Below, one piece after another: positions 2,413-60,259 of a DNA stretch of 64,000 nucleotides (position 1 is its first letter; every line of letters starts with the position of its first letter). The notes below the pieces were generated by a model. It was not told where the DNA came from and made no database searches. It saw only the letters and a program-made list of their open reading frames with translations. The translations under genes were made by a program, and so were the position numbers. The stretch is from Leeuwenhoekiella polynyae (lineage in GTDB: Bacteria; Bacteroidota; Bacteroidia; Flavobacteriales; Flavobacteriaceae). The stretch lies in the NCBI RefSeq assembly GCF_004104075.1, contig NZ_QOVK01000013.1, positions 1 through 64,000 on the forward strand, written 5' to 3'.

Positions 2413-3141
2413 CTAAAAAAGCGTCAGCTCGCCACCACCCAAAGCGGGGTCAATAGGTTCTACCGGTTTTAAAATTTCGGGGACATCGGTTTCTACCCCA
2501 CGCTGATAAATGGCATTGCTTACCGGATAGGTTTCAAAAGGCGTAGTGGTAAAGCCTACCCGCATCAATTCTTCCACCTGCTTTTGATTTAAATCCGGTT
2601 CAATCCAGTTATTTAGAAACTGATCGTCTAACACAAGGGGCATCCGTTTCTTTTTATTGTGTATCTGTTCAAACAGCTCATTTGCCGGTACCGTAATGAT
2701 ACTGGCACTATAGAGTTCATCATCCAGTGCAGTATACAATCCTGCAAAGGCGAAGAGTTTATGGCCTTCCAGTTTACAGTAATACGGTTGAGATTTACTT
2801 TTGTAATGATGCGGCTCATAAAACCCGTCTGCAAGAATCAGGCAGCGACTTTCTGCCGCACTCTTTTTATACGTCCTGCTACTAAAGATGCTTTCACTTC
2901 GGGCATTGAGCGTATTGTAATCCGCTTTAAAACCCGCCGGATCTTCAAATGCATATTCCGGGATCAGTCCCCAATTCGAGGGATAAATGCGGTCGGTTTC
3001 CATCGGAATGATATGCAGCATTCCGCTGCCAAAACCATTTAAATGATAATGCTTTTGATATTCCAAAGGCACGGCAAAATCCCGTTTAAAGGTTTCCTCT
3101 ATTTCTTTCTTAGACTTCGTCAAGCTGGTTGCATAACACAT
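2413..3141 (-). CDS. SOS response-associated peptidase (SRAP/YedK/HMCES family)
   Basis: This 242-residue protein is a SRAP domain protein of the YedK/HMCES type, which forms a thiazolidine crosslink with abasic sites in single-stranded DNA. Cys2 directly after the start Met is the catalytic residue. The family motifs are visible: NARSES near residue 80, ADGFYEP near 104 with the conserved Glu, and the IHNKKKRMPLVL segment with the active-site His. It is divergently transcribed from the small gene at 3183 and close to umuDC, so the segment forms a DNA-damage cargo set. In the chromosome this family often sits near SOS genes; here it rides on an ICE. Confidence 0.92.
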   Translation of the reverse strand: MCYATSLTKSKKEIEETFKRDFAVPLEYQKHYHLNGFGSGMLHIIPMETDRIYPSNWGLIPEYAFEDPAGFKADYNTLNARSESIFSSRTYKKSAAESRCLILADGFYEPHHYKSKSQPYYCKLEGHKLFAFAGLYTALDDELYSASIITVPANELFEQIHNKKKRMPLVLDDQFLNNWIEPDLNQKQVEELMRVGFTTTPFETYPVSNAIYQRGVETDVPEILKPVEPIDPALGGGELTLF

Positions 3142-3924: not shown

Positions 3925-5181
3925 ATGTTTGCCCTGATTGACTGCAATAACTTTTACGCTTCCTGCGAGCGCGTGTTTAATCCTAATTTGAATGGACAAC
4001 CCGTAGTGGTCTTAAGCAATAACGACGGCTGTGTGATCGCACGCTCTAATGAAGCCAAGGCATTAGGTATCCCTATGGGCGCTCCTGCCTTTAAAATTAA
4101 AGAACTGCTGCGTCAGCACAACATTCATGTGTTTTCATCTAATTATGCGCTGTATGGGGATATGAGCGCCCGGGTGATGAACATTCTGGGAAACTATTCC
4201 CCGGAGTTGGAAGTATACTCCATTGATGAGATTTTCCTAAAACTGGAGGGATTTGATTTGTTTGACTTAACCGAGTATGGACTTAAAATGATCGAAGTGG
4301 TCAAACGCAGTACCGGTATTCCCATCAGTGTTGGGATCGCACCAACTAAATCCCTGGCTAAGGTGGCTAACAAAATTGCCAAGAAGTTTCCTGCCCGCAC
4401 TCGGGGTGCATACGTAATCCAAACTCCCGATCAGATCGAAAAAGGGCTCAAGTGGACGCAGATTGGTGACGTCTGGGGCATTGGCAGACAATATGCCAAA
4501 AAGCTTCAAAATATACAGGTATTTAATGCCTGGCAGTTTACAAACCTGCCGGATGAATACGTGCGCAAAGAAATGAGTGTGGTAGGATTACGACTTAAGC
4601 GAGACCTTTCCGGCGAAGCTACCCTTGATCTGGAAGAAGTGGCTAAAAAGAAAAACATTGCTGTTACCCGTTCTTTTGAACGTATGTATACCGACTTTGA
4701 GGATATACGTGAACGGCTTGCCACCTATGCCGGTAAAGTAAGCTATAAACTGCGTAAACAGAACTCCTGCTGTAAACTGGCCTATATCTTTCTGCATACT
4801 AACGTACACCGCGATGATCTCGCGCAGTACCACAACGGCATCACGGTAAAGATGCCTTATGAGACCAATTCGTCTCTGGTGATTACCAAAGCCGTAATGA
4901 CTGGATTAAAACGCATCTATAAAGAAGGCTATCACTACAAAAAAGCAGGGATCATCGTTATGGGCCTGACCCCGGATACGCAAAAACAACTCACCTTTTT
5001 TTATAACGAAGATCCGCGGCATAAAGCACTGATGCAAACGATTGATAAACTCAACCGTACCTGTTTTGATCAGGTAAAGCTGGGCGCACAGGATTTACAG
5101 AAAGTCTGGAAAATGCAACAAAACCACCTTTCCCGCAGGTATTCTACCCGGCTAAATGAGGTGATTGAGGTAAAGGTCTAG
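3925..5181 (+). CDS. umuC: UmuC-like translesion DNA polymerase V catalytic subunit
   Basis: A 418-residue Y-family polymerase of normal UmuC length. The N-terminal palm begins [16 protein letters not shown] with the metal-binding Asp6 and the family signature, followed by [14 protein letters not shown] and [10 protein letters not shown] carrying the second acidic pair. The little-finger region and C-terminal domain follow. With the adjacent umuD it would form Pol V, giving mutagenic bypass of lesions after SOS induction. Mobile-element umuDC copies are known to raise mutation rates in recipients. The gene is intact. Confidence 0.96.
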
Positions 5182-19882: not shown

Positions 19883-20248
19883 ATGAAAACAATCTATTTA
19901 ATTTTCAGCCTTACGCTGTTCTCAGCCTGTTCCAATCCTAAAAGCAAAAGCCCGGAAGAAGTGACCCAAATGGTTTTGGAAAGCTTTTATGCACGGGATA
20001 ATGAGATGCTAAAAACCTATACCACCCAAACCGGTTATCAAGGTCTAATGCAGATTCAAAACTTCTTTGTGGAAGATACCGAAACAGAACTGGGTTTTAA
20101 AGTAGTACAGCAAACTCAGGAAGGAGATACCGCCTGGGTGAAATGTACCATCAACTATTTAGATAGACCGGAAACCTTTAAACTGGTCAAGGAAGATGGA
20201 CAATGGAAAGTCACGGAAAAAGAGCTTCGGGAGAAGAGTCCAATTTAG
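19883..20248 (+). CDS. small lipoprotein, last gene of tra operon (DUF4878-like)
   Basis: A 121-residue lipoprotein. The signal peptide ends in a lipobox LFSAC, and the mature domain ends in the WVKCTINYLDRPETFKLVKEDGQWKV pattern of the NTF2-like DUF4878 family. It lies 6 bases after traN and may function in the conjugation envelope complex or in entry exclusion; neither is shown. Its stop codon overlaps the stop of the convergent hipA by 4 bases. Confidence 0.7.
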   Translation: MKTIYLIFSLTLFSACSNPKSKSPEEVTQMVLESFYARDNEMLKTYTTQTGYQGLMQIQNFFVEDTETELGFKVVQQTQEGDTAWVKCTINYLDRPETFKLVKEDGQWKVTEKELREKSPI

Positions 20249-21495
20249 ATTCTAAAAGCCGATTCCATCAACTCAATTTCTGCATTTTTTATTCCAATTT
20301 CTTTAGCAATAACTTTCCAATCGTTGACTACAATTTGAATTTCATTCAGGATAGCATTCATCTCCTGTTCATTTAATCGAAAATAGACCCCAACACTTTT
20401 GGCCAAGTCAAAATCAAGGGCATTATCATCCATATCAATATTTAAAGAGAGCCCATTTTTATCGACAGACGGATTCAGATCATAAGCCGGAGCTAACTCC
20501 CAGCCCTTTTCACGGAGTATAAATCCGTGATTTCGCAAGTGATCATCTGTATTGGAAATCGCAATATTAAAAACCATTCGGCGCCAGAGCTGATGTAAAT
20601 TGGTTTCTACATGGACACCATAATTTTCAATAAATTCTACCAGTTCAAGGTAACTAGCTGTCTTACCCCTAAGAACATCTTCGGTATTTCCGGTCATGGT
20701 CATGGCGGAGGCAAAATGAATGCGCTCTGTATTTTCGCGATCAAATCGGCGGGTTAAAAAAGTATGATAGGGACCCTTGATTTTTTCCACTTTGGATTCA
20801 GCCATTTCAATTGCGGCAGCTGTAGCCAGTCGATAGGCTAAAAATTCCCATAAAGCTTTGTCCACGGTATCTGATTTCGACGGAAACTTGGCTATCCAGA
20901 GGTTTTTCTGAGAATCCAGAACATTGGCCTTGGGCCTGGCACCACCAAGAGAGGAACCTGGGGCTATCAGTACCGCAATCCATTTTCGTATGGTATCGTT
21001 TTGCTCATCATTTTCCAACTGGTTTACGGCTTTCTGCAATTCCCCTAATGAAGACCATGGAGGTGTTGGTGTTTGATTATCATTATCCAGAAACGGACCA
21101 TCCAATTCCGTCTTAAAACGTAAAGCCCCCATCCTACTTTCATCGAATACTCCCAGGAGGTAGTCTATTTCATAAAGTGTTCTAGGTCTTTCGTTGTTTT
21201 CCCTGGCTTCTTGTGCTGCCTTACGTTTCATTAAAGTTTTTCCCCATGTATCAGGCATACTATCCAGGAAAATTCCAAAATTCTCTTTTTCTGATGGAAA
21301 TTGAGGCCCTGAATAAAATTGAATATCCGGATCCAAAAGTCGCTGATTTTTAGTTTTCAACCACTCTGAAGCATATTCAAAACTGAAGGCTTTTTTGCCC
21401 TTTGCAAAATGCGCCGATAACGTACCAATTAATCGGGGCCCGCCCAGGCCAATCCAGTCTGCAAAAACATAAATATCAAATTTTCCTACTACCAT
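20245..21495 (-). CDS. hipA: HipA-family serine/threonine kinase toxin
   Basis: A 416-residue HipA-like kinase. The N-terminal Couple_hipA domain is followed by the ATP-binding segment GSSLGGARPKANV near residue 188, the catalytic segment NIAISNTDDHLRNHGF near 311 with the catalytic Asp, and the metal-binding LAPAYDLNP near 338. It is preceded by a HipB-like gene two bases upstream. HipA kinases phosphorylate tRNA synthetases or similar targets and cause growth arrest. The pair is oriented against the tra operon and probably stabilises the ICE as an addiction module. Confidence 0.9.
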   Translation of the reverse strand: MVVGKFDIYVFADWIGLGGPRLIGTLSAHFAKGKKAFSFEYASEWLKTKNQRLLDPDIQFYSGPQFPSEKENFGIFLDSMPDTWGKTLMKRKAAQEARENNERPRTLYEIDYLLGVFDESRMGALRFKTELDGPFLDNDNQTPTPPWSSLGELQKAVNQLENDEQNDTIRKWIAVLIAPGSSLGGARPKANVLDSQKNLWIAKFPSKSDTVDKALWEFLAYRLATAAAIEMAESKVEKIKGPYHTFLTRRFDRENTERIHFASAMTMTGNTEDVLRGKTASYLELVEFIENYGVHVETNLHQLWRRMVFNIAISNTDDHLRNHGFILREKGWELAPAYDLNPSVDKNGLSLNIDMDDNALDFDLAKSVGVYFRLNEQEMNAILNEIQIVVNDWKVIAKEIGIKNAEIELMESAFRI

Positions 21496-21497
21496 AA

Positions 21498-21785
21498 TTA
21501 TAATAGATCCAGATCTTGTAATTTTCTACCGAAAGCATCATCATTGGCCAGTTTCAAAAAATCCTCTTCAAGGTTATAAACTCTTAATACATTAAAGTAA
21601 ATACCCAGGGCCACGGACGGATCCCCCTTCTCAATTCGGTAAAGGGTAGCCCGGTGAATTCCGGCACGCTCTGAAACCTGCTCTGTGGTAAGCTTTCTTC
21701 TTTTTCGTGCCAGCTTTATGTTTTCGCCTATTTGCTCAAACATTTTTTGATGTTTTGGTAATACCGTGGCTTTTTTCGAATTCAT
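21498..21785 (-). CDS. hipB: HipB-like Xre antitoxin
   Basis: A 95-residue protein with an HTH_3 domain (IGENIKLARKRRKLTTEQVSERAGIHRATLYRIEKGDPSVALGIYFNVLRVYNL) at residues 17-70. It sits directly upstream of hipA, as HipB antitoxins do, and would bind the kinase and repress the pair. The start ATG overlaps a copy of an ATTTGTCGC motif that also occurs twice before the mobilisation genes. Confidence 0.88.
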   Translation of the reverse strand: MNSKKATVLPKHQKMFEQIGENIKLARKRRKLTTEQVSERAGIHRATLYRIEKGDPSVALGIYFNVLRVYNLEEDFLKLANDDAFGRKLQDLDLL

Positions 21786-23426: not shown

Positions 23427-24458
23427 CTAAATACTAATTGAACTTGATTTCACGGCAATACCCACTCCCCTTTTCAGGGCATTAAATGCTTTATATGCCA
23501 GTTGTACCTGATTTACCGGAACAGTTGGTGGCAATTTAATTCCGGCTTCCCGCATCAGTTTAAATGCGGCAGTACGCTCGGGATAAGGGAGCTTAAGGAG
23601 GTTTTTGTAAAACTGACTGGTATCCTTAACAAAATCCCTGCGGGAGGTATAGTGCTCCATAAAGTTACGCTCGTAGTTGAAAAGCCTGTCAAAGGTTTTC
23701 TCAGCCTGACTGAAAAAATAATCCCGATCAAAGCCACGCTTGATCTGTTTCCCGTTAAATTCCACCTCTGATGCTTTATACTTACTTCCCGGAGACAGAC
23801 TAATCGAATTCGACTGATCCTTCCTGCTTACGATTATATGGATGTGACTTTGCGGCCCGGGCTTTTCCATTCCCTGCACAATGCGTTTGCCATTAAGTTG
23901 GTGGGGTGCTTCCAGTTCCAAACATTTGATTTTATCGTGAAGTGCCTTTAGATTACCGGTGGTGGTACCGGTCTGAATACGATAGACTTCATCTTTTAGA
24001 GTTTGGATTTTGGTAGCAATAGGCTGATTGCCGATCACCTCCCGATCTGTGCCTTTAAAGCGCCGGGTATATTCAATCTTTGCAAAGTACTTGATGTCTT
24101 CGACCCGTATAGGTCTGCCGTTGATCTCCCGATTAAAAGCTTTGACATAATCCTGCATCAGCTCGCGGGTATACTGCTTAAGTGCTTCGGGGTGATTTTT
24201 TAAATGCTGTAATTCCCTTTCGGAAGGATTAACAGTGATCGAATAAAACCGGGGTTCGTTACGCTTAAGTTTTGCGGTGTTGGAATCGATTTCCGCCACT
24301 ACCCGATCCGGTTTGATATCATTCTCCGTCTGGTTAAAGAAGTACTCAAAATTTTCAAGCGTACGTTCTTCGTTTTCCTTTTCCAGGTAATTGACAAAAT
24401 CCTGTGAACTCTGATTGAAATGGGTTCCTAATTTCTGAGGGGTGATGGTGATGTACAT
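23427..24458 (-). CDS. mobB: relaxase MobB-like (DUF5712 family)
   Basis: About 343 residues from the chosen Met (MYITITPQKLGTHFNQSS), 12 bases after the stop of the upstream mob gene. A start 11 codons further up would overlap that gene. The HxH metal-binding motif is in GPQSHIHIIVSRKD near residue 204, and the N-terminal part has conserved Tyr residues that could be the nicking nucleophile. This is the MOBP-type relaxase found in Bacteroidota ICEs and annotated as DUF5712. It should nick at oriT, for which the region at 24962-25034 is the candidate. Confidence 0.83.
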   Translation of the reverse strand: MYITITPQKLGTHFNQSSQDFVNYLEKENEERTLENFEYFFNQTENDIKPDRVVAEIDSNTAKLKRNEPRFYSITVNPSERELQHLKNHPEALKQYTRELMQDYVKAFNREINGRPIRVEDIKYFAKIEYTRRFKGTDREVIGNQPIATKIQTLKDEVYRIQTGTTTGNLKALHDKIKCLELEAPHQLNGKRIVQGMEKPGPQSHIHIIVSRKDQSNSISLSPGSKYKASEVEFNGKQIKRGFDRDYFFSQAEKTFDRLFNYERNFMEHYTSRRDFVKDTSQFYKNLLKLPYPERTAAFKLMREAGIKLPPTVPVNQVQLAYKAFNALKRGVGIAVKSSSISI

Positions 24459-24469
24459 AATGTTCGCAA

Positions 24470-24841
24470 TTAAAAATCCTTTCCATCCCAATCCTCAAAC
24501 TTCTCATCATCCAGTTCGTCATCCCGCTTCATTATAAGTGGCTTTTCTTCCGGAGTTTCCGTCTGGGTAAATAGCGCTTCGAGCATGGCCTGGGTGGGTT
24601 TGGTTTGGTTCTTTTCCACGTCCTTGATAATCGCAATGACCGCATTGATGCGTTTCAGGAGTTTGGCTTCCAGCGTACGTCCGGTTGGACCTAACTGTTC
24701 TTTGGGAGAAATCTCATTATACAGGAAAAAGTCGAGCATCGTCTCCATCGCTTCCGTGTGCGTTTTGAAGTGTTTTCGGGAGAATTCCTGAAAACGTTTG
24801 GCTGTTGGTTTCTTAAATCGAATGCCTAAAAATGAGTCCAT
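24470..24841 (-). CDS. mobA: BfmA/BtgA-type mobilisation accessory protein
   Basis: A 123-residue protein with an N-terminal ribbon-helix-helix-like start (LGIRFKKPTAKRFQEFSRKHFKTHTEAMETMLDFF), then a helical segment and an acidic tail (DDELDDEKFEDWDGKDF). It is the first gene of the mob operon and matches the BfmA/BtgA relaxosome accessory family. It probably binds oriT to aid nicking and may repress its own operon through the twin ATTTGTCGCAAATT repeats upstream. Confidence 0.8.
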   Translation of the reverse strand: MDSFLGIRFKKPTAKRFQEFSRKHFKTHTEAMETMLDFFLYNEISPKEQLGPTGRTLEAKLLKRINAVIAIIKDVEKNQTKPTQAMLEALFTQTETPEEKPLIMKRDDELDDEKFEDWDGKDF

Positions 24842-24961: not shown

Positions 24962-25034
24962 AACGAAAAGGAATCCGTAACACCGCATCGCGTGTTACCC
25001 TCTTGCTATTCCTTTTCGTTCGCCGCAGGCGAAC
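24962..25034. other. oriT: candidate origin of transfer (oriT)
   Basis: Three perfect inverted repeats are nested or adjacent. AACGAAAAGGAAT at 24962-24974 pairs with ATTCCTTTTCGTT at 25008-25020 (13 bp). Inside, GTAACAC at 24977-24983 pairs with GTGTTAC at 24992-24998 around CGCATCGC. Next to them, GTTCGCC at 25018-25024 pairs with GGCGAAC at 25028-25034. The location upstream of the mob operon is where relaxases act. The nick site was not determined. Confidence 0.6.
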
Positions 25035-25492: not shown

Positions 25493-25963
25493 TTAGAGGA
25501 GGCCTTCATCTGCAAAACTGAAGTATTGACCTGTGGGCGTTAAAATGATGTGGTCTAAAACTTTGATGTCCAGAAACTCCCCTGCACTTTTGATCTTACG
25601 GGTGATGCTCTTGTCGGCTTCACTGGGTTTTAAAGTTCCGCTGGGGTGGTTGTGGGTTAAGATCATCCCAACTGCCAATGATTTTAAAGCAACGGCAAAT
25701 ATTAAACGAACATCTACAACCGTTCCGGTGATACCACCCTGCGATACCTGAAATACCCCTTTGATCTGGTTGCTGTTGTTGAGCAGTACGATTTTAAAGC
25801 ATTCAAAAGTGGCGATATGGTCTTTATCCCAGTTCTTAAAAATAGCTTCGGCAGCATTGGCAGAAGAACTGATTTTAATCCAGTCTGTAGCTTTCTGTCT
25901 GGTGGAATACCGGAGCTTGATTTCGTTGAGTTGTGTCTCCATAGCAATCGATTTAATATTCAT
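25493..25963 (-). CDS. RadC-like JAB domain protein
   Basis: A 156-residue RadC/JAMM family protein. The metal-binding motif HNHPSGTLKPSEAD is near residues 103-116, and the C-terminal sequence KVLDHIILTPTGQYFSFADEGLL is the usual RadC end. It lacks the N-terminal HhH domain of full RadC, as is normal for copies on mobile elements. Two starts are possible: the first Met overlaps the upstream gene by 11 bases, and METQL eight codons in leaves a small gap. The role on ICEs is unclear. Confidence 0.88.
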   Translation of the reverse strand: MNIKSIAMETQLNEIKLRYSTRQKATDWIKISSSANAAEAIFKNWDKDHIATFECFKIVLLNNSNQIKGVFQVSQGGITGTVVDVRLIFAVALKSLAVGMILTHNHPSGTLKPSEADKSITRKIKSAGEFLDIKVLDHIILTPTGQYFSFADEGLL

Positions 25964-26333
25964 TCGGTAACATCAGGGTATCGTCTACAAAAAACAGGCG
26001 CAGTTCATCTAAGGGAAAATCGGTGACGGTATATTGCTGCTCAAAAAGGGTAATACCGTTTCCGTCTCCATAGCTGATAGCAGCTTCGTGTTGGTTCCGT
26101 TGTTGCTCGGCTTCGCTATAACGTCTAAACAGGGTAACTATAAATCCGTGCTTGGCTCGAAAGCGTCTTACGACGGCTCCGATATCGGTAAGCATCCAGT
26201 AACAGGCAGCTTTCTCCGCCAGATAGTGTACTCCTTCGGTGTATTTGTAATTGAACAGCGGTAAGGTATATACTACTTCACTTCCGCAGAACTGCTTTAG
26301 GTTTTGGGATAAATTGATATTTGAATTTTCCAT
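25953..26333 (-). CDS. DUF6876 family protein
   Basis: A 126-residue protein with the family pattern NLKQFCGSEVVYTLPLFNYKYTEGVHYLAEKAACYWMLTDIG near the N-terminus. Members are common in Bacteroidota ICEs beside radC and ssb and have no assigned function. It shares the mob-side transcription direction and overlaps the RadC frame. Confidence 0.7.
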   Translation of the reverse strand: MENSNINLSQNLKQFCGSEVVYTLPLFNYKYTEGVHYLAEKAACYWMLTDIGAVVRRFRAKHGFIVTLFRRYSEAEQQRNQHEAAISYGDGNGITLFEQQYTVTDFPLDELRLFFVDDTLMLPNEY

Positions 26334-26405: not shown

Positions 26406-26744
26406 TTAAGATTTACTACCCATTAAAAGGATTTCCGAAGCTTCGATTTCGGTTACATAGCGGGTTACCCCTTCTTTATCCTCATAGCTACGGGATTTGA
26501 GTTTTCCACTTAAGGCCAGTTCTTTACCTTTGGTCACGTAGTTCTCAATGAGGTCTGCCGTTTTACCCCAGGCGACAACGGTGTGCCACTCGGTAGTCTG
26601 TAGTTTTTCGCCATTATCCTTTTTATAAAATTCATTGGTGGCGAGGGAAAAGCGTGCGACTTTGCGGCCGCTTTCCAGATTGGTAATCGTTGGCTCCTGA
26701 CCAACATTTCCGATTAACTGTACATGGTTTCTTAAAGTTCCCAT
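26406..26744 (-). CDS. ssb: single-stranded DNA-binding protein (ICE copy)
   Basis: A 112-residue SSB with a single OB fold: NHVQLIGNVGQEPTITNLESGRKVARFSLATNEFYKK, EWHTVVAWGKTADLIENYVTKGKELALSGKL, then RYVTEIEASEILLM. It ends in GSKS and lacks the acidic C-terminal tip (DDDIPF type) of chromosomal SSBs, so it may not recruit the usual partners. It is the rightmost ICE gene and probably coats transferred single strands. The long gene-free stretch lies upstream of it. Confidence 0.92.
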   Translation of the reverse strand: MGTLRNHVQLIGNVGQEPTITNLESGRKVARFSLATNEFYKKDNGEKLQTTEWHTVVAWGKTADLIENYVTKGKELALSGKLKSRSYEDKEGVTRYVTEIEASEILLMGSKS

Positions 26745-26775
26745 AATTGAAAGAGTTTAATGCCCGTAATTAGGC

Positions 26776-26807
26776 GATTACTAATTCCCTTTTCCATTTA
26801 AGTAATC
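26776..26807. repeat. inverted repeat upstream of ssb
   Basis: GATTACT at 26776-26782 and AGTAATC at 26801-26807 are perfect complements around an 18-base loop, about 30 bases upstream of the ssb start on its strand. It may be an operator or the first stem of the structured stretch that follows. Confidence 0.4.
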
Positions 26808-26890
26808 CCGATTTTAGGAACTGAACTTAAATTTTAAGGGGTGTTTGTTTGCCTTCTTACGTGCGTAGCACAATGGATCAGGTGGGTTTT

Positions 26891-27371
26891 GTCAAGGCTT
26901 TCCGGGAACAAATCAGGAGTGTCTGCGACGTAGTAATCCCGATAGTCATCGGGATTCAAGGAAGTAGAAACCTTATTTTTCCTGGAAACTCCGTATAGCC
27001 TTGACAAGTTCCATAAGGACCTTAGCAATTCTCTTAAAACCGGAAGCGCAGTAAGCGTACGGGAAGTTAAGCGAGCGGAGCAGTCGGGTTTATTCTAGAA
27101 TTGGTTAGGTTCTGCCTGTTTTTCGCTGTCCCGAAAAACAAGCAAGGCCTTAGCCATTAGAAACCCCTTAAAATGACTAAGACGGCACCTGATTTTTCAG
27201 GATTTTCGAGCAGGGGCTCAAGAAGAACCTGCCGCAAAATCCGGTTAAGAAAATCAGGATGCCGGCTTTCCTATTTCAAAAAGCGGACTAATCTGTTTTT
27301 TGGGAGTGAATGCAATGCACCCAAAAGCGCAGCGAGCGGGTAAATGCAATGAAGGAATCAAAATAACAGAT
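26891..27371. ncRNA. candidate large structured RNA at ICE right end
   Basis: About 480 bases without a plausible gene contain a series of long stems: GTCAAGGCT 26891-26899 with AGCCTTGAC 26997-27005 (extended by TTCCGGG/CCTGGAA with one G-U); AATCCCGAT 26935-26943 with ATCGGGATT 26948-26956; GGACCT 27017-27022 plus CAATTCT 27026-27032 plus AAACC 27037-27041 with GGTTT 27087-27091, AGAATTG 27097-27103 and AGGTTC 27107-27112; TGTTTTTCG 27117-27125 with CGAAAAACA 27132-27140; CTTAGCCATT 27149-27158 with AATGACTAAG 27172-27181; CGGCA/TGCCG and CCTGATTTT/AAAATCAGG enclosing GGATTTT/AAAATCC and GCAGG/CCTGC (27183-27264); ATCTGTT 27291-27297 with AACAGAT 27365-27371. The strand is not settled. Confidence 0.5.
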
Positions 27372-27919
27372 GGGTCCAAGACTTCGAGTGAAGCTCTTTT
27401 ACCGAAATGAAGCTTAGCGGAATGTAGGGAAATGGGATGAGCGACTGGATTACTAAATATTAAAGTTAAAAGTCCTGTTAAGGAACTTGATGAATCTTTT
27501 TCATATTTACACCTTTTGGCAAAAAATATCAAATAGCTTTTATCTTATTGATCCAGTTGCCTAAAATCCATATAAAAAATATTATGCAAAACAGAATTAA
27601 AGTCATTATAGCCTAACCATAAATTTGGAGTTTACTTTAATGTCAGAGTGGAGGAACCAAACGCAAAATAAAATCTTGAATCAAAAGCAAACAAAATAAA
27701 TAGGAAAAAAAGAAGTCCAATAGCTTAATGACTTAGTCTTTTGATAGAGGTAATTTAAGAATTTAACCTGCAGAGATGTTATGTGATTTTAAACTTTTAA
27801 TCGAAGAATTATAAGCTGAGAAAAACTAAATTCTAAAATTCATATTAATAAATATATTGCTTGCTACTAAATATAAGTATCTAACATCAAATTATAGTTT
27901 ATCCTGAAAACATGCGAAA
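27372..27919. other. gene-free AT-rich ICE end
   Basis: About 550 bases with no supported gene. A minus-strand frame across 27254-27532 lies partly in the stems and looks accidental. From 27530 on the sequence becomes strongly AT-rich. I see no clear repeat here apart from short hairpins such as AAGCT/AGCTT near 27391-27415. The ICE-chromosome junction is expected in or just after this stretch. Confidence 0.4.
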
Positions 27920-27974: not shown

Positions 27975-27981
27975 CTTTCAG

Positions 27982-28061
27982 TACCCCGGGTGGGAATCGA
28001 ACCCACACTCGTAAGAACTGGGTTTTGAATCCAGCGCGTCTACCAATTCCGCCACCGAGGC
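27982..28061 (-). tRNA. tRNA-Leu(CAA)
   Basis: On the minus strand the sequence GCCTCGG...CCGGGGTA folds as an 80-base class II tRNA without an encoded CCA. The acceptor stem has two G-U pairs; the D region is TGGCGGAATTGGTAGACG; the anticodon loop TTCAAAA gives CAA (Leu, codon UUG); the T arm is GTGGG TTCGATT CCCAC. The lowest pair of the anticodon stem is A-C by my reading. Its 3' end faces the ICE, so it is a possible integration site. Confidence 0.93.
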
Positions 28062-28308: not shown

Positions 28309-28389
28309 ACTGGGTTTTAAATCCAGCGCGCCTGCCTGCCGGCAGAGGCAGGTCTACCTCCCGATAGCTATCGGGACCGCTACCGAGGC
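28309..28389 (-). pseudogene. relic of tRNA-Leu 5' half carrying two palindromes
   Basis: On the minus strand the order is GCCTCGGTAGCGG, a palindrome of the CCCGATAGCTATCGGG type, GGTAGAC, a second palindrome (TGCCTCTGCCGGCAGGCAGG), then CGCGCTGGATTTAAAACCCAG. Outside the two insertions it matches the intact tRNA-Leu from its 5' end through the anticodon stem, with a few substitutions (anticodon loop TTTAAAA). The T arm and 3' acceptor strand are absent. The bases GGCATTA follow the 5' end in both copies. Confidence 0.8.
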
Positions 28390-28474
28390 ATTAATGGAGG
28401 GCAAAATTAATAAAATTTCTCATTATTTAATCAAAATACTGCTAAAATAAAGTCCGTCAAGCCAATTTAATTTA

Positions 28475-59870: not shown

Positions 59871-59971
59871 AAGATAGTTTTTACTGTAAACTGAAGGAGG
59901 CTTGAAACCTCGAATTCACCTTATAAAACTTCCTGAACAGAATTTTTTTATAAGATGAAATGTTTTTCACT

Positions 59972-60048
59972 TTTCCCTTCGCTGGTACTAACCAGATCAG
60001 GTTCAAAGGGTACTATCTCAGCCGATATACGTATCAGCGCCCCTAAAG
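59972..60048 (-). promoter_or_regulatory. TPP riboswitch (THI element) of thi operon
   Basis: On the minus strand the THI core reads GGGGCGCT, then GGCTGAGATAGTACCCTTTGAACCTGATCTGGTTAGTACCAGCGAAGGGAA, including the universally conserved CTGAGA and ACCTGATCTGG segments. Binding of thiamine pyrophosphate would lower thi expression. Downstream, CATCTTATAAAA can pair with TTTTATAAGGTG (59912-59960), a possible expression-platform stem. A TAGCTTTA box lies upstream. Confidence 0.95.
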
Positions 60049-60259
60049 TTTACTACGTAAAGCTATAAATAAATAACTGAATTTTTAAAGTCTATCTGTT
60101 TAATTTTAAAAACATATGATCTGTACTTAACAGATTTTAGCCTTTCCTTAAGGACAAAATAACAGGATTCATAGGGATATAAGTCTTATGCTTACTTAAC
60201 TTGTGAACATCAAAGAATACTAATCATTCTGCTTTGCGGAAGACCAAAAAATAAAAAAT

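Follow-up and report, generated by a model that had tools for sequence, protein, structure and literature searches.

The DNA analysed in this study, called the window below, is a 64,000-nucleotide (nt) stretch of Leeuwenhoekiella polynyae (contig NZ_QOVK01000013.1, positions 1 to 64,000). It raises the question of what is hidden in a gap rich in inverted repeats, between a minus-strand ssb gene and a tRNA-Leu gene (27981-28061), on an integrative and conjugative element (ICE). The first-pass annotation had suggested there, at 26760-27375, an undescribed ICE-borne non-coding RNA. The element is indeed ICE-borne, conserved, structured, apparently non-coding and without an Rfam family. Its RNA nature is less certain, since the published single-stranded DNA (ssDNA) promoter Frpo of plasmid F shows the same pattern of wobble pairs, the strand that folds is also the one predicted to be transferred in conjugation (the T-strand), and the place of the element is Frpo-like. 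We lean, if only slightly, towards a folded T-strand establishment element of the Frpo, ssi or sso kind, which would act as a promoter, a primer or both.

A conserved multibranched fold

The structured region extends over approximately 26828-27440, a shift from the 26760-27375 first proposed, and comprises a core and a tail module (Table 1). The closing helix of the core, whose 12 bp unite several arms in a single multibranch domain, was not among the stems first listed. The inverted repeats reported earlier are all present; the stems at 26891/27005, 27017/27112, 27117/27140 and 27183/27264 are kept in the consensus of 41 homologues, and that at 27291/27371 is real and forms part of the tail stem. 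The 10-bp stem at 27149/27181 is not supported; its bases have their partners at approximately 26872-26882, in helix 3 (96.2% of cells paired). The hairpin at the tip of the long arm had its sequence swapped many times across the aligned homologues. A conserved TTCCC(C) on the 5' side of the core (26780-26842) is complementary to the GGGG in the closing helix, so that pairing of the two is a possible alternative fold.

That the stems exceed chance, as had been claimed, is borne out. The RNA fold of 26745-27480 has a z-score of -8.37 on the plus strand and -5.47 on the minus strand, and none of 20 shuffled sequences was as stable on either strand; for the 466-nt core alone, z is -7.50 (plus, DNA), -6.61 (minus, DNA) and -7.40 (plus, RNA). 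The core alignment holds 41 of 48 distinct cores, and its consensus structure, derived from these same rows, has 132 pairs; for 64 of them, one or more sequences carry changes on both sides. In this alignment 96.4% of cells pair, as compared with 36-53% when the partners are slid by one to three columns, and sliding lowers the number of both-side-changed pairs to 26-39; none of 500 shuffled alignments matched the real one on any of five measures. Because close relatives are frequent among the sequences and certain loci overlap, the counts given in this study do not represent independent events.

A second set, of 47 further cores among the matches listed, was not used to derive the structure; its members are less than 97% identical to the first set and to one another in an ungapped comparison at the same length. 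There, 95.9% of cells pair (36-53% slid) and 68 pairs are changed on both sides (32-42 slid), and the compensatory changes among homologues whose absence would have spoken against the early proposal are thus abundant. Left out of the homologue sets were L014 (a duplicate) and L022 (partial), and L020, a partial core, was left out of one further set. The coding control, ssb in 41 sequences, has no excess of both-side-changed pairs (8, as compared with 5-11 slid).

Two other modules were tested on the rows that yielded their consensus structures, namely the tail, in 81 of 85 near-full-length copies, and head B, a fold found in sister ICEs (see below), in 16 copies. The tail has 91.3% of cells paired (35-49% slid), and head B has 91.7% (42-52% slid) with 13 both-side-changed pairs (4-11 slid). 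A search for pseudoknots by corrected mutual information, with approximately 16 effective sequences, placed 12 of its top 60 pairs in the structure and yielded nothing usable. Overall, the stems are real and conserved, and the covariance-model search that had been proposed found no Rfam family at gathering score, the two matches up to E = 5 lying far below the cut-off.

The folded strand

Departures from the mostly Watson-Crick pairs differ between the two strands. In the core, the plus-strand fold has 235 G-U and 53 A-C, and the minus-strand fold 52 G-U and 168 A-C; the corresponding G-U/A-C counts are 228/49 and 32/157 in the tail, and 51/14 and 12/40 in head B. In the coding controls, the counts on the two strands are 191/77 and 91/16 for ssb, and 34/12 and 19/11 for the mobilization gene labelled MobA in the analysis. 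Since G-U exceeds A-C in these controls whichever strand is folded, a plus-strand excess of G-U by itself means little; what is informative is the reversal on the minus strand, where G-U falls below A-C in core, tail and head B, unlike in the coding controls. By this wobble evidence, the preserved folded molecule is the plus strand, which settles the strand that the first-pass annotation had left open.

The same comparison was made for Frpo of F and 12 plasmid homologues. These 13 rows are approximately 90% identical and served for wobbles but not for covariation, as only 9 of 163 T-strand pairs occur with two Watson-Crick types. Frpo has 30 G-U and 7 A-C on the T-strand fold, and 8 G-U and 17 A-C on the opposite strand; wobbles make up 9.8% of its standard pairs and 10.3% of those of the core. 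Therefore, the signature marks the folded strand and cannot tell RNA from DNA, and the argument that an excess of G-U proves an RNA was dropped after the Frpo and coding controls.

Position, orientation and predicted direction of transfer

The start of a divergent ssb lies 50-92 nt from 50 of the 51 distinct cores, the exception being the second core of locus L099. A core-derived pattern matched at least 118 stretches in named genomes, and for 80 further cores among the matches listed, such a start lies within 200 nt (42-186 nt) in 75. Three of the remaining five lie less than 400 nt from the end of their stretch and were not judged; the other two, L209 and L170, are without ssb. L209 looks decayed, its nearest open reading frame (ORF) matching no tested family. 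In L170 the ssb is replaced: at a distance of 33 nt from the core there is a minus-strand ORF, which is followed by DUF6908, PRTRC and RadC genes. This core stands ahead of a PRTRC operon with ubiquitin-like, E2-like and ThiF proteins (L170:1317-6994). Among 20 larger stretches, a divergent SSB match adjoins the core in 18 (a partial SSB in L092), and in 15 of these 18 a mobilization gene lies beyond ssb, on the far side from the core.

The element is situated in the leading region of ICEs with a MobB-family relaxase. The interval from the mobilization gene to the following leading gene contains a candidate origin of transfer (oriT), an inverted repeat followed on the plus strand by CCTCTTGCT, in all 22 aligned rows, which are the window and 21 other stretches; the rows are not independent, L086 and L087 being nearly the same element. 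Well-studied oriTs have such a repeat on the 5' side of the nick in the strand that is transferred. If the candidate follows this rule, the plus strand is the predicted T-strand in 22/22 rows and the ssb side is leading.

Tails are oriented opposite to ssb in 125/125 comparisons and, among the matches listed, in 95/95 of a second set; they are co-oriented with one another in 61/61 pairs and 24/24 loci, and 33 loci carry several tails in a single orientation. Locus L097 has tails without a core. The minus-strand genes beyond the tails include those for DUF932 and ParB_N proteins. The leading region of F likewise has SSB, ParB-family and DUF932 genes, and the second Frpo copy of F (15553-16012 of L103) precedes a small gene and a DUF932 gene. 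Integron-like cassette sites were considered, as tails flank genes in one orientation, and set aside.

Distribution and replacement in sister elements

Among 149 relatives, 25 have a match. In the same family, core or tail, sometimes the tail only, was matched in 104 of 397 sampled genomes. From the order, 14 of 296 sampled genomes match; only three of these belong to other families, and their matches are weak and cover little sequence. The pattern matches listed are nearly all from Flavobacteriaceae (Maribacter, Aquimarina, Leeuwenhoekiella, Flagellimonas and others), with a few from Saprospirales, Cytophaga or, by title, only Bacteroidetes. Searches of plasmid and phage collections found no relative of this stretch. 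The element is common in marine flavobacteria, on a transferable type of ICE.

Ten further relaxase-bearing stretches all lack the core, and six of them have ssb. Head B takes the place of the core in five of these six, together with a tail in four, one of which (L137) belongs to another family of the class, and alone in one; the sixth stretch ends approximately 310 nt past ssb. The head B copy nearest ssb in L134 is partial. Head B is a long hairpin (e.g. L023:1205-1460), which in some copies overlaps the beginning of a short ORF on the minus strand. Thus, sister ICEs have a different fold in the same place and on the same (plus) strand. The window's own genome has six relaxase-family matches (L134, L131, L130, L132, L133), so that several related elements coexist there, and those with readable ssb surroundings have head B instead of the core.

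A proposed function

The strand, position and orientation of the conserved fold, and its modular replacement by another one on the same strand, are easier to reconcile with a T-strand control site of the Frpo, ssi or sso kind than with a free RNA; promoter or primer action is inferred. The proposed course of events can be described as follows. During conjugation, the plus strand would enter the recipient single-stranded, in the order RadC, DUF6876, ssb and then the element. While single-stranded, the element would take its conserved fold, and the folded DNA may offer duplex or protein-binding parts to the RNA polymerase of the recipient, or to another initiator, so that the T-strand is copied. 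Early mRNA for ssb and its neighbours would be made, reading towards oriT, and possibly also a primer for second-strand synthesis in the manner of sso. Once the DNA is double-stranded, the fold would be lost and the site silent. The tail modules may serve further leading genes likewise.

Several observations weigh against this proposal. Frpo consists mainly of a single long hairpin, whereas the core has several branches and many unpaired bases that never vary, which is RNA-like; an RNA would explain this form and the invariant loops at least equally well. In the tail, compensatory pairs are moderately in excess (29, as compared with 19-25 slid), and tandem tails without an intervening gene occur. 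The second core of L099 and the core of L209 have no adjacent ssb; in L098, which also lacks ssb, tails and a fragment of the core are found amid plus-strand ORFs. No sequence similarity was found in 72,556 plasmid records, F included. A -33/-7 promoter motif was absent from both strands of 51 homologues by a search whose positive control was weak, and the -7 box alone is rarer in the homologues than in shuffled sequences. As only 1 of 12 matches in the window lay ahead of a listed gene, the missing motif was set aside as evidence. Two recurrent sequences, TATTTTT (45 of 51 cores) and TATTTTGC (15 of 16 head B copies), are no more than hints.

A bolder form of the proposal, which we hold tentatively and at somewhat less than even confidence, is that the element represents natural ssDNA of RNA-like complexity. 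It would be a 450-nt multibranched, strongly covarying T-strand fold with invariant loops, unrelated in sequence to Frpo, which switches on the establishment genes of Bacteroidota ICEs as long as the incoming DNA is single-stranded and whose modules (core, head B and tail) can be exchanged.

Alternative explanations

An undescribed large ornate RNA, transcribed from the plus strand divergently from ssb and acting in trans or as a scaffold in the maintenance or transfer of the ICE, is a serious rival, although we regard it as less likely than the T-strand site. Its case is made by the multibranch form, the invariant loops, G-U pairs that are invariant at three places in 41/41 sequences, the strong covariation and the wobbles on the plus strand, of which the last are matched by the same pattern in Frpo DNA. 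Also against an RNA, three different modules all have their fold on the predicted T-strand, Rfam has no match, and no plus-strand terminator was found in 51 homologues or in the window; the lack of a plus-strand promoter motif adds little, given the poor motif control. Should the element prove to be an RNA after all, it would be a new class of large RNA, carried by an ICE type that is common in marine flavobacteria.

The other explanations appear far less probable. A structured DNA site outside strand transfer, for replication or partition of the ICE or for recombination between tail repeats, would suit the nearby ParB_N genes and the 33 loci with several co-oriented tails; it is improbable, as the one-strand wobble signature needs a single-stranded molecule and the element adjoins ssb and the oriT candidate. 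The position directly before ssb also suggests a structured 5' leader of the minus-strand ssb mRNA, comparable to EGeRS1 before the establishment genes of pLS20, which according to passages of PMC8708921 is also multibranched and repeated. We consider this very improbable and set it aside because the fold kept by evolution is that of the plus strand and not of the minus strand. Least credible of all are an origin of the stems by chance, a coding region, or the remains of a transposon or REP sequence. REP-like palindromes do occur in one variable hairpin, and many homologues have a plus-strand ORF of 35-44 codons within the core, but the covariation exceeds that of slid and shuffled controls. 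Protein coding was rejected, since the small plus-strand ORF of the homologues is not open in the window copy, which by eye has no ATG there and a stop in frame. The sole listed ORF of at least 90 codons in the gap (27254-27532, minus, 92 codons) has no Pfam match.

Annotated features of the window

Table 1. Features of the element and of the leading region (window coordinates).
Feature	Position	Strand	Basis
Core, conserved multibranch fold, ~450 nt	26828-27281	+	profile match 26828-27274, consensus structure
Closing helix (helix 1), 5' arm	26831-26842	+	partner 27163-27174
Closing helix (helix 1), 3' arm	27163-27174	+	98.8% of cells paired
Long arm (helices 4-7), tip = fast-changing hairpin 26935-26956	26884-27014	+	consensus structure
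Second arm (helices 8-12)	27018-27111	+	consensus structure
Helix 13, hairpin, nearly invariant	27117-27140	+	99.5% of cells paired; 7/9 pairs never vary
Third arm (helices 14-16), outside closing helix	27183-27264	+	17/27 pairs changed on both sides
Tail module, also found alone elsewhere in related ICEs	27283-27440	+	homologue comparison
Stretch resembling DNA directly before the small minus-strand ORF of sister elements	27652-27771	-	similarity
ssb, heading the adjacent group of minus-strand genes	26406-26744	-	Pfam SSB
DUF6876 gene	25953-26333	-	family match
RadC gene	25493-25963	-	family match
oriT candidate, inverted repeat then CCTCTTGCT	24977-25011	+	CCTCTTGCT in 22/22 aligned rows
BfmA/BtgA-like mobilization gene (MobA)	24470-24841	-	NCBIfam
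MobB-family relaxase gene (DUF5712)	23427-24491	-	family matches

At 27652-27771, the small minus-strand ORF of the sister elements is not seen in the window copy. The element had been placed at the right end of the ICE; its location on an ICE is upheld and the exact end is not proven, as the tRNA-Leu sequence tested was found only once in the window and a second attachment repeat was not seen. Near the intact tRNA-Leu gene, a partial second tRNA-Leu-like copy with two short palindromic inserts (28310-28395) may be an integration scar. The ICE also carries a HipA-type toxin gene with a helix-turn-helix partner (20245-21785). Elsewhere in the window are IS21-type genes (22-2177), a SRAP gene (2413-3141), an ImpB/MucB-type polymerase gene (3925-5181) and, on the minus strand, a TPP riboswitch (59957-60054; Rfam).

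Comparison with known systems

GOLLD, ROOL and OLE are large ornate RNAs with multibranched, covarying folds. The present element resembles them in size and in its multibranch covarying fold, and differs from them in having no Rfam match and in being known here from sequence alone.

Among DNA elements, EGeRS1 of pLS20-type plasmids is described, in passages of PMC8708921, as an approximately 600-bp multibranched sequence repeated before establishment genes, for which the strand that is transferred does not serve as the template. Size, multibranch form and repetition before establishment genes are shared with the present element; unlike in EGeRS1 as those passages describe it, the folded, predicted transferred strand would here be the template. 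By the account in parts of PMC4595007, the sso1 of ICEBs1, itself an ICE, is a site that folds on the transferred strand and is specific to one orientation. The present element is likewise on an ICE and has a fixed orientation relative to the predicted transfer, and it is much larger than sso1.

In the openly licensed literature, no paper describing this element was found, and openly licensed papers yielded nothing on the expression of establishment genes on entry for conjugative elements of Bacteroidota. A common element with a fitting strand, place and orientation makes this question directly testable. The passages on ssDNA promoters demonstrate them for enterobacterial plasmids, and the main text of PMC11541004 contains no word starting with 'bacteroid'. 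In the relevant passages of PMC9849209 and PMC11541004, Frpo and ssi of F and ColIb-P9 are ssDNA promoters of the leading region, whose T-strand is the template of the genes. The present element agrees with them in having a predicted T-strand fold of several hundred nt, in the leading region, directly upstream of ssb and in more than one copy per element; its fold, too, is on the predicted T-strand, which would serve as the template for the genes. It differs from them in the absence of a sequence match, in its multibranched core, in having no recognised promoter boxes and in its host, a Bacteroidota ICE. With its long hairpin, head B of the sister ICEs is closer in form to Frpo than the core is.
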